From Actinopolyspora alba (GTDB lineage Bacteria > Actinomycetota > Actinomycetes > Mycobacteriales > Pseudonocardiaceae): 64,000 nt of DNA. Under the pieces are notes generated by a model. It did no database searches, had not been told where the DNA came from, and worked only from the letters and a program-made list of their open reading frames with translations. This document shows positions 6,399 through 13,621 of this stretch, one piece after another (the stretch's first letter is position 1; each line of letters starts with the position of its first letter). The position numbers and the translations under genes were made by a program. The stretch covers positions 1 to 64,000 of the forward strand of contig NZ_FOMZ01000007.1 of the NCBI RefSeq assembly GCF_900112765.1, read 5' to 3'.

Positions 6399-6575
6399 TC
6401 GATGTACTCCCACCTCTCGGTTGTCCTCCGTGGGTGGGCTGCTGGGCCGAGCCCGGTGATGATGGTGCTTGTTCGGTGCCTGCCGCACGCGTTCAGCGGC
6501 AGGCCGAGCACCAGCGCTCGACGTCACGGATGCCGAGCCGTTCCCCGATCCCGTGGCAGCGGCTCACGCGGTGTC

Positions 6576-7085
6576 TCACTGCTCCGGTCCGCTGCTGTGA
6601 TTGTGCTCGCTCTCGGGCGCTCGGCGGTCGACGTGGCGCCGTTGTTTTTCGTACGCGCCGTGCAGGAGATCAACCAGGGTGGCCATGGTCCGTTCCGCCG
6701 GGTTCACGACAGCCACCCAGCCGCGAGCACCGTACACGGGATGGGGCATGAACACGTCCGATTCACCGAATTCTCGCGATTTCTTGTCGCTCGAGTCGAA
6801 GTCGCGGGGGGTTTCGCCGGTGAGCTCGGTGAATGTCGACCGGCCGACATCGACATTCACGCGGTATCGGTCCGCTGCCCCCAGGTTCGACGACGGCTCG
6901 CCGGGATAGTCCTTCGTGACGATCGTGGCGAACGGCTGGTGGTGCCGCGGGATTCGCCCGTCCGGTGAGTAGTAGAAGAAGTGATCGCCCCAGGCGATCT
7001 CGGGAAACTCGCTTCCCGCACCGGGTGCGAGCTCGAGGAGTCCTTCGAATTCGCGGACCGCGCTGAGGATGTGGTGCATACTCAT
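6576..7085 (-). CDS. DUF6194 family protein
   Basis: A 169-residue soluble protein resembling the DUF6194 family, recognised by the run PEIAWGDHFFYYSPDG, then QPFATIVTKDYPGE, a RVNVDVG strand and GWVAVVNPAERT. The family has no assigned function. The last 20 residues are polar and His/Glu rich. ATG 7085 is used; it is divergent from the double-MerR gene with only about 44 bp between starts, so that regulator is a good candidate to control it. Confidence 0.75.
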   Translation of the reverse strand: MSMHHILSAVREFEGLLELAPGAGSEFPEIAWGDHFFYYSPDGRIPRHHQPFATIVTKDYPGEPSSNLGAADRYRVNVDVGRSTFTELTGETPRDFDSSDKKSREFGESDVFMPHPVYGARGWVAVVNPAERTMATLVDLLHGAYEKQRRHVDRRAPESEHNHSSGPEQ

Positions 7086-7129
7086 GGTTCGAGCGTGGCA
7101 TTGAAGTGCTTGTGGAGGGTTCGACCGCT

Positions 7130-7855
7130 GTGAATGCTTCTGGGGGGCGCCGGGGGAGTCTCAACACCTCCGCCGTTGCCGCGGCCGCGGGCTACTCGCC
7201 TCAGCAGGTCCGCGAGCTCGAACGGCTGGGAGTCATCCCGGCTGTCCCTCGAGCTGTGAACGGATACCGTGAGTTCTCCAGCGTCCATCTGCTCGCGCTG
7301 CGCACCTACCGCAACCTGGCCGTCGCCATTGGCCCGGTGGAGGCGAGAGATGTTCTTCGGCGAGTGCCAACCCTTCCCACCGACGAGGCGGTGGCGCTGA
7401 TCAGTTCTTTGCACGGCAAGCTCGTCCGTGCGCGGGAGGACGCCCTCGAAGCCCAACGAGCGCTGCTGTCGATACGCGACGAAGCCGTGTACGACTCCGA
7501 AACCGGTGCGGCGGACACCATGACGATCGCGGAACTGGCCACGGCCCTCGGCGTCCGCACATCGACGCTGCGGTTCTGGGAACAAGCCGGATTGGTGTCC
7601 CCGGAACGCGTGACCAGTCGCAGCGTTCGCCGATATCCCTTGTCCGCGATCCGAGAGGCTCGCATCACCGCCGCGCTACGCGCAGCGGGTTACCGGATCC
7701 CCGATATCCGCAAAACCATGCACGACATCCGAGAGCTCCACGAGATCGACGACCCGATCGCGGCACTACAAGCCAGGATCGACGTCATCGCGCAGCGCAC
7801 ACTCGCCCTTCTCACAGCAGGCACCGATCTCACGGAAATCATCCGGAACGGCTAG
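7130..7855 (+). CDS. MerR-family regulator with two tandem HTH domains
   Basis: A 241-residue transcription factor. Residues near 14-70 form one MerR-type winged helix (SAVAAAAGYSPQQVRELERLG, then PRAVNGYREFS). A linker follows, and a second MerR HTH begins near residue 125 (TIAELATALGVRTSTLRFWE, then RSVRRYPLSAIREARI). Two complete MerR DNA-binding units in one chain is unusual, since the family normally dimerises through a coiled coil; the C-terminal helix here (about 20 residues after the second HTH) is short. GTG 7130 is chosen because GGAGGG lies 10 nt upstream; in-frame GTGs exist at 7106 and 7112. It is divergent from the DUF6194 gene and is followed by the hairpin at 7912. Confidence 0.85.
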   Translation: MNASGGRRGSLNTSAVAAAAGYSPQQVRELERLGVIPAVPRAVNGYREFSSVHLLALRTYRNLAVAIGPVEARDVLRRVPTLPTDEAVALISSLHGKLVRAREDALEAQRALLSIRDEAVYDSETGAADTMTIAELATALGVRTSTLRFWEQAGLVSPERVTSRSVRRYPLSAIREARITAALRAAGYRIPDIRKTMHDIRELHEIDDPIAALQARIDVIAQRTLALLTAGTDLTEIIRNG

Positions 7856-7911
7856 CCCTCCATGGTACGACTTCCGCGCCGAACAGGCGGCGAGCGGAAC
7901 AGCACACGACA

Positions 7912-7957: not shown

Positions 7958-7988
7958 GTCGATCACACGTCGAAGTACATCGCGAACT
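7958..7988. repeat. Left attachment-site copy (glnA 3'-end duplication)
   Basis: Thirty-one bases identical to 12111-12141, running from GTCGATCACACGTCG to CATCGCGAACT. They correspond to the last eight glnA sense codons, the stop codon and five bases beyond it. Identity ends sharply on both sides. With the right copy it brackets 4.15 kb holding an integrase remnant, as expected for the two hybrid att sites of an integrated element. Confidence 0.85.
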
Positions 7989-8089
7989 GAGACCAGGAGC
8001 TTTCGAGCTGGCCCGCTTTTGGGCTATGCATGTTCTGACCTGGTGTGATGCGTCGCTCTGTGTTGGCTGACGTTGAGTGATTTCGATCG

Positions 8090-8111
8090 TTTCGCGGACT
8101 ATTCGCGGACT
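8090..8111 (+). repeat. Left subterminal repeat pair (possible integrase arm sites)
   Basis: TTTCGCGGACT, four bases, then GCGGACT. The same arrangement with the same 4-nt spacing occurs at 12046-12067 near the other end of the element. The left pair lies about 100 bp inside the att copy. Confidence 0.4.
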
Positions 8112-8307
8112 GTCCATTAAGGATCAATCGACGGATCTCGCCACCTGATCGCGTTCCCGCTATCCTCGGTGCGTACCTCTTCGCGGAGGTTTTGCCCCCG
8201 CTCGACGGGCCGGGGGTTCGGAGAAGAACCCCCGCATGGTCGACGAATCACCGGACAATGAGTCCCAATCTCCGGTGATCACGATTAACTCCGGGCCGTC
8301 TGCTGGG

Positions 8308-8313
8308 TAGCCT
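8308..8313 (+). promoter_or_regulatory. Leaderless -10 hexamer for the XRE regulator
   Basis: TAGCCT ends 7 nt before GTG 8321, with no Shine-Dalgarno sequence in between. Confidence 0.5.
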
Positions 8314-8320
8314 TGCACAT

Positions 8321-9499
8321 GTGGAGTCGGATATCGGTCGCAAGCTGCGCCAGATCCGGCACGTGCGCGGCAAGTCCTTGTCCGTGGTCGCCGGATTGGC
8401 GGGTATCAGTGCTAGTTACTTGTCTCGGCTGGAGTCCGGTGAACGTGCCCTCGACCGCCGGTCTCTGATCACTTCTCTTGCCGAAGCTCTGGAAGTCGCC
8501 CCCACCGAACTCACCGAGTCCACACTCGGCGGCGCGGGTGAGGCGAACGAGGATGGGCAACTCAACGAAGTGCGACTCGCCCTTCTCGGCGCGAGCATCG
8601 GCGAACCACGCGGCCAAGTATGGCCCGTGGCGGGGTTGAACGATCGGCTGGCCGCGTTGCTCAGCGCTCAGCAGGCATGCCGACACGCAGAGGTAGGACA
8701 AGAGCTGCCGGGGTTGATTCGAGATACTCACGAAACCCTGCGTGCTGGCAAGCATGATGGCGCGGTATTGCGCTCTTTGGTCCTGTTGCACGTTCAGGGA
8801 ACGCAGGCCTGGTTGCGGGACGTTGGTGCTTCCCTCGATCTCGGCTGGCAGGCGGCCCAACTCGCGCAACAGGCGGCACACCACTTGGACGAGCCGCTCA
8901 TGCTCGGCGTAGCGGGCTTCGGGGTATCGCACGGGCTCATGGCGGCCGGGGCGTTCGACCTGGCCACCGACACGCTCAAGGCTGTTTCACCGGGAACGGC
9001 GACTTCGGAAGACATGCAGTTGTCCGGGATGTTGGCCTTTACCAACTCCCTGTTGGCTGCCGCGGCTGGGCGAACGAACGAACGTACCCCGCCGTTGGAA
9101 CATGCGGCTGAACTTGCCGAACGGACGGGGGAGGCCAACGCGCTGTGGTTCGGTTTCGGTCCTTCGAATGTCGCCGTGTGGCGCATGGCCGTTGCCCTGG
9201 AATGCGGTGAATTCATCGAGGCCGCCCGTCTGGGCGCGAGCGTAGATCCGAGAATGATCCCGTCTCCGACCAGGAAAGCAGCGTACTGGGGCGATTACGG
9301 TCGTGCGCTGGCACGGATACCAAAGCAACGAGAAACGGCGGTGCGGGCTCTTCGCACGGCGGAACGAATCTCGCCCCCACGAGTACACAAACACCCGTTC
9401 ACTCGTTCCACCCTCGCTGAGCTACTGCTCAAGACCAATCGCGACGCGGTGGGACGCGAACTTCGTGGTATGGCCTACCGAGCAGGACTTCACGTGTAA
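8321..9499 (+). CDS. XRE-family helix-turn-helix regulator with helical C-terminal sensor region
   Basis: A 392-residue protein. Residues about 5-65 are an XRE/Cro-type HTH (GRKLRQIRHVRGKSLSVVAG, then SASYLSRLESGERALDRRSL). The remaining 320 residues are Ala/Leu-rich helices resembling the TPR-like sensor region found in many actinobacterial XRE regulators of mobile elements and secondary metabolism. A ligand or peptide signal is likely but unknown. GTG start set by the TAGCCT hexamer. It is the first and largest intact gene in the glnA-inserted element and probably controls the small genes downstream, which start 80 nt after its stop. Confidence 0.8.
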   Translation: MESDIGRKLRQIRHVRGKSLSVVAGLAGISASYLSRLESGERALDRRSLITSLAEALEVAPTELTESTLGGAGEANEDGQLNEVRLALLGASIGEPRGQVWPVAGLNDRLAALLSAQQACRHAEVGQELPGLIRDTHETLRAGKHDGAVLRSLVLLHVQGTQAWLRDVGASLDLGWQAAQLAQQAAHHLDEPLMLGVAGFGVSHGLMAAGAFDLATDTLKAVSPGTATSEDMQLSGMLAFTNSLLAAAAGRTNERTPPLEHAAELAERTGEANALWFGFGPSNVAVWRMAVALECGEFIEAARLGASVDPRMIPSPTRKAAYWGDYGRALARIPKQRETAVRALRTAERISPPRVHKHPFTRSTLAELLLKTNRDAVGRELRGMAYRAGLHV

Positions 9500-9581
9500 C
9501 CCATTCGAGTGGGTTTGCCACTGTGTCAAAGCCGCGTCCTTCAATCTCCATAGCGTCGCTTCGATTACTGGAGGTGACGCT

Positions 9582-9788
9582 ATGCGAGAGCCCGTGTTGG
9601 TGCGGTGCAATACCGTTGAGCACGACGGCACCGAATCACTACAGCTGTCGGTCGAGGGTGGTCGGCTGACGATCATCACTCCCACCGTCTACAACCGCAC
9701 CCGGTGGAGTGCCGAGCAGGTGCGCCAGCTGCGCGACACGTTGACGAGGCTGTTGGGCCAGTTGCCGGGCGGGGGTGGTGTCCGGTGA
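9582..9788 (+). CDS. Small hypothetical protein in the island
   Basis: A 68-residue protein I do not recognise. It begins MREPVLVRCNTV, has a beta-rich middle (LSVEGGRLTIIT) and ends in a helix followed by a Gly-rich tail. ATG 9582 has a strong ribosome site, GGAGGTGA, 4 nt upstream; the longer frame from 9303 overlaps the XRE gene and is not credible. Its stop overlaps the next start as GTGA, indicating translational coupling. Confidence 0.65.
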   Translation: MREPVLVRCNTVEHDGTESLQLSVEGGRLTIITPTVYNRTRWSAEQVRQLRDTLTRLLGQLPGGGGVR

Positions 9789-10012
9789 GTCAGCCGCATA
9801 CGCAGTTGGCGACGTTGCTGCGGCGTTGTCAGTGGATGGTGGACGAGGCGGCCTACAAGCTCGGCGGCAAGCGGCTTCCGGCGGCCGATCGGCAGGGGCT
9901 GGCCGAGGCGTTGGACGAACTCGCGGCCGCGCTGCGTGAGTACCGCGACGCTCCCACCGACACGGATGCGGACGAAGGGGAGCCGCCCACGATCGTGGAC
10001 CCGGAGTCGTGA
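9785..10012 (+). CDS. Small hypothetical helical protein in the island
   Basis: A 75-residue, mostly helical protein (THTQ-like start SQPHTQLATLLRRCQWMVDE, then LAEALDELAAALREYRD) with an acidic tail. No family recognised. GTG 9785 overlaps the previous stop by 4 nt (GTGA), so it is read as part of the same translation unit. Its own stop overlaps the next possible start in the same way. Confidence 0.6.
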   Translation: MSQPHTQLATLLRRCQWMVDEAAYKLGGKRLPAADRQGLAEALDELAAALREYRDAPTDTDADEGEPPTIVDPES

Positions 10013-10236
10013 CTGTGCGAAGGGGCCGGCCCTATCTTGGCCGGCATGGTTTCCGCCCCTGCCGGCTGTCGGGGCACGTGCCCGTGTTGTCCGGTGATCT
10101 CGCGGCGCCGGGGCCGCCCACCATGTCCCGGCCGGGCGGTGATCGGCACGCCACCGGCAGCGGGCCGGTCGTGTCCGGCTGGTCGCGTGACTCGGGCACT
10201 CTGGCCCGCGTGTTGGAGGGGCTGCGGCGGCTGTGA
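10009..10236 (+). CDS. Possible small hypothetical protein
   Basis: A 75-residue frame beginning at GTG 10009, again overlapping the preceding stop as GTGA. Codon third positions are G/C rich and the end (GTLARVLEGLRRL) is helical, but the body is Pro/Gly/Arg rich and unlike any family I know. The coupling pattern is the main support; it may be a chance frame. Confidence 0.4.
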   Translation: MTVRRGRPYLGRHGFRPCRLSGHVPVLSGDLAAPGPPTMSRPGGDRHATGSGPVVSGWSRDSGTLARVLEGLRRL

Positions 10237-10507
10237 CAGCGGCTCTCACGGATCGCTGAGTGGGCCATAGAGCGACGATTGCGCCCCGGTTGGTGTGATG
10301 GGGCCGGGGCGTTCCCTGACTCATGCCGGGGGTGGTGGGGGCACGCGATGGCGGCGGCGTTCGTGCATCTCGAATCGCAGTCGGGTCACGAAGTCGTCTA
10401 GGTGTGCTGTTCGGGGAGGTTGTGTATGCGGCTGGCGGGGGTGGCTCTTCTCGACGAATGTGGAGATGCCGCCACCGGTGCCAGTTCTCGGCCCACACGG
10501 CCTCCTG
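10237..10507. other. Island interior with no clear gene
   Basis: Frames here are short or low in coding quality on both strands. A minus-strand frame that would follow the ORF at 10508-10795 opens with WAENWHRWRH but soon becomes Pro/Thr/Arg rich and is not credible as a protein. This may be decayed coding sequence. Confidence 0.5.
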
Positions 10508-10795
10508 TCACTGGCGCGACATGCGGCTGAACTCGGCTTCCCGGGCCAGCGCCAGCAACAGTCCCACCGAGACGGTGATCTCAGGCTTCGGGCATATCTC
10601 CGTGAGATCCACCGTGGTCACCCGCACCCGGTAGGCACGCCAGGGGCAGCACCGAGCGGCCTTGACCACGGGTGCGCTTGCCCACCGGTGGACGCTGTGC
10701 AGGTGGGTTGCCGCGGAACGGGCACCGGGCTGCCAGGCTCTACCGGGACCGGCCCGGAGCCGGAGCGAACGCCACGGCCCGGGCAGTTGCCGCAT
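10508..10795 (-). CDS. Possible small protein, perhaps frameshifted
   Basis: A 95-residue frame whose last 45 residues look genuine (CCPWRAYRVRVTTVDLTE, then VGLLLALAREAEFSRM), while the first half is Arg/Pro rich. A GTG at 10814, overlapping the stop of the upstream minus-strand gene as GTGA, opens a different frame (VSTTEVDAATARAVAFAPAP) that hits a stop after 24 codons. The two halves may once have been one gene broken by a frameshift. No function can be given. Confidence 0.35.
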   Translation of the reverse strand: MRQLPGPWRSLRLRAGPGRAWQPGARSAATHLHSVHRWASAPVVKAARCCPWRAYRVRVTTVDLTEICPKPEITVSVGLLLALAREAEFSRMSRQ

Positions 10796-10810
10796 CGACT
10801 TCGGTCGTAC

Positions 10811-11290
10811 TCACCGGTTCACCTCCCGGTGAGCGACCAGCGCCATCTGAGCCAAGTGCGCGGACAGCGACAGCATCTCGTCGACGCTGAGACTTGTGAG
10901 CGCTTCGCGGCGGTTCACGTCGATGTACCCCACCGGGCCGAGGTCCGGGTCCTGGAGCAGTTCGACGTTGGCTTCGCTTCCACAGAGCGTGGTGCTCTCC
11001 CGGTAAAGCTGTCGTATCTCCGGGTCGTTCTGGAGTATCACCGAGTGCCTGTCTGCCCCGGCGGCATCGGCCGAGGTGGCAGCCTGCGCGGCAAGCTCCC
11101 GGAGCTGCCCCGGAGTGAGGCCGGACAGCACCCGGTCACCGACGTACACGCTGCCGGTGCACCGAGCGTCCGCGGTGCCGTAGACCGCCGACCCCACGGC
11201 CGCGCCATCGGCGACGCGCTCGCCGTGCTTCATCAACTCGGCTTGCTCATTGCTGGTGTTTTCGGGGTTACTCACTTCCTGTGAGGTCAT
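10811..11290 (-). CDS. Hypothetical protein in the island
   Basis: A 159-residue soluble protein beginning MTSQEVSNPENT, acidic and without membrane segments or recognised domains. A middle part (LTPGQLRELAAQAATSADAAG) and an end (SVDEMLSLSAHLAQMALVAH) are helical, and a segment CGSEANVELLQDPDLGPVGY lies between. ATG 11290 has GAAAGG upstream; a longer frame to 11347 adds a Pro/Gly segment and is less likely. It is transcribed opposite to the XRE operon and integrase remnant. Confidence 0.6.
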   Translation of the reverse strand: MTSQEVSNPENTSNEQAELMKHGERVADGAAVGSAVYGTADARCTGSVYVGDRVLSGLTPGQLRELAAQAATSADAAGADRHSVILQNDPEIRQLYRESTTLCGSEANVELLQDPDLGPVGYIDVNRREALTSLSVDEMLSLSAHLAQMALVAHREVNR

Positions 11291-11572
11291 AGCAGGACCT
11301 TTCTCGTAGGCGGTGCCGAATCCTTGTTGGGGCACAGGGGGCGGCACCGCTTTTCATGGCTGTACTGTGTCGAACTCACGCGGCATCACCGCTGTTCGCG
11401 CATAGTTCCGCATCGAACCGTTCGATTTCGACTGGTGAGTACAAGACGCGCTTATCGGCTTTGATTCCGTGCGATCCGTAGCCGATCGTTCGTCAGTGCT
11501 GGACGGTCGACGGGGCTGTGCGGTAGAGCTCGGCTACTTCGTTCGTTATGTGCTACCGCTGAGGGACCTCGG
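11291..11572. other. Island interior, probable eroded 5' part of the integrase
   Basis: No intact gene is seen. By position it should hold the N-terminal and first catalytic portions of the integrase whose C-terminus follows, but I could not find the usual GLRxGE motif (first catalytic Arg) in any frame. Confidence 0.4.
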
Positions 11573-11920
11573 GTGTGTTCGCCTCGTTCCGCTGCGGTTG
11601 CTGTGTCCAGAGCCGTGCTCTTGGGGCGAAACTCGCCCGCCGTGCAGTATCCGGAGGAAGAGTTGAAAACGGAGATGTCGCGCACGACGGTGCCGATCGC
11701 GGACACACTCGTGAAGGTCCTCTCCGAGCAAGTACGGCGCTGGCCTGGCGAGACGGTCCTGACGGCCGGAGAAGGTGAGCAGGTGGGGCCGTGGAAGATC
11801 GAACGGGAAGTCCGCCGTGTCCGCAAGCATGTCGCGTGCTTACCGGGGGATTTCCGGTTTCAGGATCTCCGTCATTACTTCGCGAGTCTACTGATCAGCT
11901 CGGGCGCGGACGTGAGAACA

Positions 11921-11965
11921 GTCCAGCGTCGTCTTCGCCACGCTTCGGCGAAGACGACGCTGGAC
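11921..11965. repeat. Perfect 19-bp inverted repeat inside the integrase fragment
   Basis: GTCCAGCGTCGTCTTCGCC at 11921-11939 is the exact reverse complement of 11947-11965, with a 7-nt loop. It spans codons for VQRRLRHASAKTTLD, so the coding constraint and the palindrome coincide. Confidence 0.75.
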
Positions 11966-12045
11966 GCTTACGGACACTCGGGGCCGGACACCGAGGAATC
12001 CACACGGACCGCTGTGGAAGCTGTGATGTCGGCCGAGTTCGGAGA

Positions 12046-12067
12046 TTTCGCGGACTCCGTGCGGACT
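12046..12067 (+). repeat. Right subterminal repeat pair (possible integrase arm sites)
   Basis: TTTCGCGGACT, four bases, GCGGACT, matching 8090-8111 in sequence, spacing and orientation. It lies 44 bp inside the right att copy, within the 3' end of the integrase frame. Confidence 0.4.
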
Positions 12068-12110
12068 CACGGATCTTGACTTGATGGAAAAACCAGGTCA
12101 AGCCCGTTCA

Positions 12111-12141
12111 GTCGATCACACGTCGAAGTACATCGCGAACT
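12111..12141. repeat. Right attachment-site copy at the glnA 3' end
   Basis: Identical over 31 bases to 7958-7988. Here it is the functional end of glnA: it encodes the final residues FAMYFDV, the stop codon and five further bases. Integration therefore left the glnA product unchanged but replaced everything downstream. Confidence 0.85.
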
Positions 12142-13540
12142 CGTGCGGGTGCGGACGCAGCCGGATCGGGTCGATCTCGTTCTCCCGCTTGAGCGAGATG
12201 AAGTTCTCCAGCAGGTCCTCGGTGAACACGCCGCCTTCCAGCAGGTACTCGTGGTCGGACTCGAGGTTGTCCACCGCGTCGCTGAGGCTGGAGGGAACCT
12301 GCGGCACGTTCTTGGCCTCTTCCGGCGGCAGCTCGTAGAGGTCCTTGTCGATCGGGTCCGCGGGCTCGATCTTGTTGCGGATGCCGTCCAGGCCCGCCAT
12401 CAGCATCGAGGCGAAGCCGAGGTAGGGGTTACCGGACGGGTCGGGGCAGCGGAACTCTACGCGCTTGGCCTTCGGGTTCGTCCCGGTGATCGGGATGCGC
12501 ATGCAGGCCGAGCGGTTCCGCTGCGAGTAGACCAGGTTCACCGGCGCCTCGAAGCCGGGCACCAGACGGTGGTAGGAGTTCACCGTCGGGTTGGTCAGCG
12601 CCAGCAGGCTCGGGGCGTGGTGCAGGATGCCGCCGATGTAGTACCGCGCGGTGTCCGACAGTCCCGCGTATCCGGACTCGTCGTGGAACAGCGGCGAGCC
12701 GCCCTGCCACAGCGACATGTGGCAGTGCATACCGGAGCCGTTGTCACCGAACAGCGGCTTCGGCATGAAGGTCACGGTCTTGCCGTGCCGCCAAGCGGTG
12801 TTCTTGATGATGTACTTGAACAGCTGCAGGTCGTCGGCGGCGTGCAGCATCGTGTTGAACTTGTAGTTGATCTCTGCCTGGCCGCCGGTTCCCACCTCGT
12901 GGTGGGCCCGCTCCACCTCGAACCCGGCCTTGGCGAGCTCGGTGCTCATCTCGTCGCGCAGGTCGGCGTAGTGGTCGTACGGCGAGACCGGGAAGTAGCC
13001 GCCCTTGTAGCGGGTCTTGTAACCCAGGTTTCCGCCGTCCTCGGCGCGGCCGGTGTTCCACCAGCCCTCGATCGAGTCGACCTCGTGGAACGAGGAGTTC
13101 GCGTCCTCGGAGTAGCGCACCGAGTCGAAGATGTAGAACTCGGCCTCGGAGGCGAAGAAGGCCGTGTCGGCGATGCCGGACTCGTTCAGGTACTGCTCCG
13201 CCTTGCGGGCGATGTTGCGCGGGTCACGGCTGTAGGGCTCCAACGTGAACGGGTCGTGCACGAAGAAGTTGAGGATCAGCGTCTTCTCGATCCGGAACGG
13301 GTCGATACGAGCCGTGTACGGGTCGGGCAGCAGCAGCATGTCCGACTCGTGGATCGACTGGAAACCACGCACCGACGAACCATCGAAGGCCAGACCCTCG
13401 GTGAAGGTGTCGTGGTCGAACGCCGAAGCGGGAACGGTGAAGTGCTGCATGACGCCCGGCAGGTCGCAGAACCGGACATCGACGAACTTCACGCCCTCGT
13501 CGGAGATGAAGCGTAGGACCTCGTCTGGATTCTTGAACAC
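12116..13540 (-). CDS. glnA: Type I glutamine synthetase
   Basis: Makes glutamine from glutamate, ammonia and ATP as a cytoplasmic dodecamer. The 474-residue product has the standard length for the GSI-beta type. Visible landmarks are the N-terminal [11 protein letters not shown] strand, the DGSSVRGF loop, [10 protein letters not shown], the ATP-site region and the adenylylation loop [15 protein letters not shown], whose Tyr is the target of GlnE (encoded in this window). GTG 13540 is used because AAGGAG lies about 10 nt upstream and the resulting VFKNPDEVL start matches the family; a longer frame to 13582 does not. A GlnR-type operator lies 80-120 bp upstream. The 3' end is the integration site of the adjacent island, so its original terminator now lies 4.2 kb away. 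Confidence 0.97.
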
Positions 13541-13621
13541 CCTCGATGGCTCCTTCACGCATTGGTGCCGCTCACCGGCCATTCCTCGTCGCCGGCTCGT
13601 GAACGAGGCTAGGGGGGCGGT

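Follow-up and report, generated by a model that had tools for sequence, protein, structure and literature searches.

The first 64,000 nucleotides of contig NZ_FOMZ01000007.1 of Actinopolyspora alba, read on the forward strand and referred to here as the window, contain glnA, the gene of a type I glutamine synthetase, and beside its 3' end a 4.15-kb stretch enclosed by a direct repeat. This stretch appears to be the degraded remnant of an integrative element, and behind it stands a family of elements that use the same gene end. Three features define the locus, namely the gene and the left and right attachment sites (attL and attR):

12116..13582, minus strand: glnA, type I glutamine synthetase, intact, the target gene (PF00120 and PF03951; identity to the congener L004)
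12111..12141, minus strand: attR core, the last codons of glnA with the stop and 5 bp (repeat comparison, empty sites)
7958..7988, minus strand: attL core, the glnA 3' end repeated away from the gene (exact over 31 bp; over 34 bp from 7955, one mismatch)

The repeat and its empty site

The two copies (7958-7988 and 12111-12141, spacing 4153) are identical over 31 bp, exactly as a first-pass annotation of this DNA had them, and form a 34-bp repeat with one mismatch when extended from 7955 and 12108. One copy had been taken for the coding end of glnA, and this is the right one, which comprises the last 23 sense bases of the gene, its stop codon (12116-12118) and 5 bp beyond. A query of positions 12050-12350 matches the own genome at E<=0.001 only at the two repeat places, and chance does not account for an exact 31-bp repeat at a single spot of a 5.2-Mb genome. 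The left copy is isolated: a 590-base glnA query matches there over bases 1-31 only, and a bare 31-34 bp rules out the end of a second glnA paralogue.

The insertion itself is settled by empty sites. In the congeners L004 and L005, 96.9-97.7% identical to the window on both flanks, the sequence passes from 7988 directly to 12108 across a single 34-bp copy, as had been predicted for relatives that lack the element. GlnA of the window and of L004 are 100% identical over 488 amino acids, so the insertion has left the protein unchanged, and the proposed integration at the glnA 3' end with an intact product stands. A second repeat match at E<=0.001 is absent from all nine other genomes of the genus, which puts the element in one genome of ten. 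Its content, with or without a repeat boundary, does not lie beside glnA in these nine congeners, the glnA neighbourhood being the part searched for it. Direct repeats flanking the element and derived from a single-copy bacterial attachment site (attB), the mark of a tyrosine-integrase integrative element, are thus present in the window.

Remnants of the recombination genes

Two gene remnants next to the right copy belong to the recombination machinery:

11636..12079, plus strand: integrase remnant, C-terminal part only (65.8% identity to residues 214-359 of a Prauserella halophila integrase)
11403..11546, minus strand: Xis-like (excisionase) remnant, interrupted by an in-frame stop (tblastn E 8.7e-14, 52% over 48 residues)

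The integrase reading frame is open from 11573 to 12079 and matches PF00589 over profile positions 59-168 of 172 (E 9.8e-13). It adjoins the right copy as described earlier, at a distance of 31 bp rather than the 32 given then, and ends 36 bp from the glnA stop. Its good alignment to a 362-residue relative starts only at about residue 214, and tblastn with 14 full-length relatives finds no match to the N-terminal part in the window at E<=1e-3. The missing portion, not recognisable in the window, presumably held the first catalytic arginine. The second remnant matches a small helix-turn-helix protein of the Prauserella element, which, like the remnant, we take to be an Xis. No other integrase of this clade is present in the own genome at E<=1e-60, among five of 35 first-look candidates that were scored in an assembly of 42 contigs. 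With an integrase lacking its N-terminal part, an interrupted excisionase and no second clade integrase found in the genome, we infer that the window copy is stranded and would no longer be able to leave by itself.

Within the integrase codons lies a perfect 19-bp inverted repeat (11921-11965). The motif is found in 25 of 32 homologs, where only 8-15 of the 19 positions match; the window version looks as if a quasi-palindrome had been perfected by template switching.

glnA as the target of an integrase clade

The nearest integrase among 386 genomes of the family (65%) is that of Prauserella halophila DSM 44617. Here the gene is full-length, the layout is the same, and the integrase ends 30 bp past the glnA stop. 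A second core, a 29-bp copy with one mismatch, lies 8.56 kb away; it is absent at E<=0.001 from six of six congeners, and in the congeners G258 and G254 the flanks are joined into an empty site. Four further family matches (E 1e-21 to 1e-23) are not near glnA.

At the level of the order, 397 genomes yielded 18 non-own integrases at E<1e-120. Seventeen adjoin glnA in convergent orientation, and the eighteenth (G703), tried as an exception to this siting and rejected as such when a core search placed it there, also lies at glnA (18/18). None of the 11 lower-scoring order loci examined (E 1e-60 to 1e-72) has a glnA within 1.5 kb. Among 394 genomes of the class there were seven new integrases, six of them at glnA, and in one family (f16) 20 of 112 genomes carry a clade integrase at E<=1e-100 at glnA; six of these genomes were new, every one with a copy at glnA, as were six of the eight new rows at that threshold. 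A phylum sample of 296 genomes returned a single, already known result (G784). In total 30 of 33 non-own genomic integrase copies, at limits of E 1e-120 (order, class) and 1e-100 (f16), are found at glnA, spread over several families of one actinobacterial class.

In a midpoint-rooted tree, 27 rows including the window form one clade (100/100), 24 of them labelled glnA, while 16 others stand apart; G703 still bears the label 'other', and among the 16 one gene was entered twice and one is partial. Inside the clade the window falls in starred sets of four rows (95/90) and six rows (100/99). glnA is a standing target of one integrase clade. The annotation had called integration into glnA unusual; the site is real, and for this clade it is the habit rather than an oddity.

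A second copy of the glnA end was located in 20 other elements (15 order-level loci, G703, three class-level loci and G1076), a count in which five further f16 loci were not extended and four loci (G594, G588, G778 and G808) reach contig ends. These copies are 5.3-30 kb away; for the 18 listed, agreement is 23 to 27 of 27 bases. In G1076, G859 and G626 the second core is followed by another right arm instead of chromosome. The first element of G1076 has the arm motif CAGTCCCC and is followed after 14.9 kb by a second element end with TGCTCTCA, of which the contig has only 456 bases. In G859 the element is of class TTCCTCAG and the right arm after it of class AGTCCGCA. The case of G626, a right-arm-like stretch with no clean repeat pair, is less clear. 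Since no second integrase was found at E<=1e-10 within 39.8-39.9 kb in G859 and G626, their neighbours are probably remnants.

Arm repeats around a fixed core

All 19 elements with both ends tested, the window included, show the same arrangement. Each arm carries two copies of one 8-bp motif, 11 bp apart and all oriented alike; the right pair lies at +36 to +79 relative to the glnA stop, the left pair at -103 to -127 relative to the core. In the window these are:

8093..8111, minus strand: left-arm repeats CGCGGACT, twice, 11 bp apart (8093-8100 and 8104-8111; arm search)
12049..12067, minus strand: right-arm repeats CGCGGACT and TGCGGACT, 11 bp apart (12049-12056 and 12060-12067), inside the 3' codons of the integrase

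Six comparisons among the four copies give no mismatch in twelve elements, three in six and six in one; the window has three. Spacings of 8, 9, 10, 12 and 13 produce the pattern in none of the 19, and letter-shuffled arms in none of 200 trials for each element, again including the window. The pattern is also present in G703 and in the first G1076 element, which lie outside this set.

The motif is alike in both arms of one element and differs between elements, while the core stays glnA. The 19 elements fall into a AGTCCGCA type (12), AGTCCCC (2), GGTACGCA (2), and CGTCCGCA, TGCTCTCA and TTCCTCAG with one each; the viral contig L156 adds a further class, GTTCCGTC. This might hint at a private arm code, in which phages, relaxase-bearing elements and small satellites share one core and each integrase acts mainly on its own element, a suggestion we offer tentatively and hold to be somewhat less than an even chance. 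If true, elements of different kinds could sit in series at a single glnA and none would excise another. The tandem neighbours in G1076 and G859 do have different motifs, two clear cases that are too few for a test.

Viral contigs and cargo

Scanned with the integrase alignment, viral contigs yielded 29 loci, of which 19 are 48-60% identical, and the junctions of nine contigs were inspected. Two (L159, L177) are at glnA and two (L152, L153) are too short on one side; of the five with enough flank, four (L148, L154, L155, L156) run from left arm through a glnA-like core to right arm with matching repeats. Their cores end in TAA or TAG, where TGA is usual at glnA. These four junctions look like an attP (the attachment site of the unintegrated form), and integration elsewhere is a further possibility. 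L149 is also near a glnA end. The Prauserella integrase has no match at E<=1e-30 among 50,697 named phage and 72,556 named plasmid records. The window fragment matches 19 plasmid and 176 phage records at E<=1e-5, as expected for tyrosine integrases in general.

Cargo was surveyed in 16 elements; 224 rough gene calls supplied the 139 proteins analysed. Six TrwC relaxases are counted among them. Read singly, five are placed (L084, L086, L087, L088, L089), and L092:2987-5314 has the helicase part only. Phage genes include those for tape-measure, minor-tail and endolysin proteins in L083, a head protease in L094 and a terminase in L047, with weak tape-measure matches in L078 and L081. Defence-type matches (MADS-like, AbiEi and others) occur among the 139 and are not assigned per protein. 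Because the cargo includes both phage genes and relaxases, one integrase clade serves several kinds of element.

The remaining features in and beside the window element are:

8321..9499, plus strand: XRE-family regulator (HTH_31), cargo or element control gene, open over 392 amino acids (family match)
9582..9788, plus strand: small open reading frame (ORF) without family match (family scan)
9785..10012, plus strand: small ORF without family match (family scan)
10811..11347, minus strand: ORF of 178 amino acids, no Pfam or NCBIfam match and no plasmid match (family scan, plasmid search)
7912..7939, minus strand, just outside the left copy: native terminator-like hairpin of glnA, directly after the gene in the empty congeners L004 and L005

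The scanned window ORFs contain no Tra or Rep family, and hence not the set of an integrase, an FtsK-type Tra and a Rep that characterises actinomycete integrative and conjugative elements (ICEs); a Pfam scan of the window finds no phage structural or packaging genes. A complete integrase gene beside one attachment site is found in the relatives and not in the window.

The native hairpin now stands 4.15 kb from glnA, and the right arm of the window offers a weak one only (-16.9), as stable as 30% of random stretches of the element. Strong folds close behind the glnA stop in several right arms suggested that elements replace the terminator; as a general rule this was rejected. Only eight of 23 right arms reach -29 kcal/mol in 50 nt, and the folding of the remaining 15 is not conspicuous within their own elements. 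Nine empty congeners reach -31 to -49, over 90 nt scanned, which makes for an uneven comparison with 50 nt.

How the element came to glnA and whether it can leave

Taken together, the 4.15-kb stretch is best explained as a degraded element that was inserted by a tyrosine integrase, through recombination of the glnA-like core of its own attP with the glnA 3' end, a reading to which we assign a probability of roughly 93%. The last glnA codons were restored on integration. The integrase would bind the arm repeats and recombine the core as lambda integrase does.

Several observations weigh against this account or narrow it. Recombination is deduced from sequences, and arm binding from the layout. 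Joined empty sites are established for the window and Prauserella only, and G784 shows no second core within 38 kb. One clade integrase (G819) lies beside the 3' end of another gene, G1076 holds two extra clade copies away from glnA, and L165 has a core without the arm quadruple. Arm regions and mismatch limit were chosen after a first look at the data, and the right arm of one element also frequently matches the left arm of another (190 of 342 pairs), because a single motif is common to most of them. The place of the window in the tree depends on 147 residues (39% of columns) and a midpoint root.

That the window integrase is a fragment would also fit a segmental duplication or rearrangement of the glnA end with the integrase piece incidental. 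Against such an origin stand the clean single-copy site in two congeners, the recurrence of the same clade at the same position with a second core in 20 other genomes, and arm repeats at nearly fixed places, which together make it highly improbable. Both cores and all four arm repeats are in place, and tandems at glnA elsewhere imply that a helper could land adjacent, so the integrase of a resident or incoming element might still move the window copy in trans; the own-genome search described above speaks against a resident one, and we regard such mobility as unlikely, at perhaps one chance in four. Less likely still is that the element is kept because its cargo, the XRE regulator and small ORFs, or its influence on the transcription of glnA benefits the host. 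The regulator is open while integrase and excisionase are broken, and the strong native hairpin has been moved away from the gene; presence in a single genome of the genus gives no sign of long retention.

Relation to known systems

Temperate phages and islands are known to use the 3' end of housekeeping protein genes, such as phage 21 and e14 in icd and islands in guaA. The glnA-site elements resemble them in that the core is a gene 3' end, the product is restored and the integrase lies beside the core; they differ in their target, glnA, and in that several kinds of element share one integrase clade. In lambda the att core is flanked by arm repeats on both sides. Here, too, repeats flank the core on both sides, whereas their motif varies among elements sharing that core. 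The recombination mechanism is therefore standard in kind.

Macrococcus phages are phages of Firmicutes. One report places the prophages phiMPNRL/St13/116 and St21/332 downstream of glnA (PMC12016501), a precedent in location. For actinomycete ICEs with tyrosine recombinases, PMC3218068 gives tRNA genes as the site of the vast majority, the pSLS subfamily excepted, and a directionality factor for most; the term 'glutamine' is absent from its main text. The glnA-site elements are likewise actinobacterial tyrosine-integrase elements and differ in their site. No plasmid record matches the Prauserella integrase at E<=1e-30.

Literature on glnA or glutamine synthetase integration sites holds no description of the family among the matches listed, with few subscription journals covered, and passages of PMC2359905 (which concerns glmS), PMC8218464, PMC6071183, PMC5133609, PMC3826726 and PMC11318856 do not mention it. 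As far as these searches reach, a glnA target combined with varying arm motifs over a fixed core is undescribed for actinobacteria.

The window copy is a modest and broken example, and the interest lies in the family behind it, which uses a central nitrogen gene as its regular docking site within an actinobacterial class; in one bacterial family, 20 of 112 genomes have a clade integrase there. For soil actinobacteria without tools, the glnA end could provide an attB for integration vectors, because the site is widely conserved: the strict form of a glnA-end pattern alone matches in 336 of 390 genomes of the window's family. The degenerate form, run on the same 390, starts one base outside the repeat, misses the left copy of the window and was used for no element count. 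With the family come an easy criterion for finding small elements and their limits, and a natural collection in which to study how arm specificity diverges over a fixed core.

Variants and neighbouring DNA

The G819 integrase has arm repeats of the same kind as those of the glnA-site elements (L109, ~1460-1560). Its neighbour there is presumably a TldD/PmbA-like gene, and no second copy of that gene end occurs within 5.1 kb; a change of integrase target is probable. The two extra clade integrases of G1076 (L144) are on another contig and incomplete or interrupted in their match. G703 has ~2 kb between right arm and integrase (L100 18326-19901, L085 1-1500), with a gene that we take to be DUF262-like.

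In the viral contig L176 the glnA-end pattern is matched exactly at two places separated by 13.7 kb, one of them in a glnA end. The Prauserella integrase has no counterpart on this contig at E<=1e-4, and another type of integrase perhaps uses the same site.

To the left of the site in the window (~6466-7874) are DUF6194 and MerR genes. Among the nine congeners this DNA is beside the site in L004 and L005 only, a separate indel adjoining the insertion.

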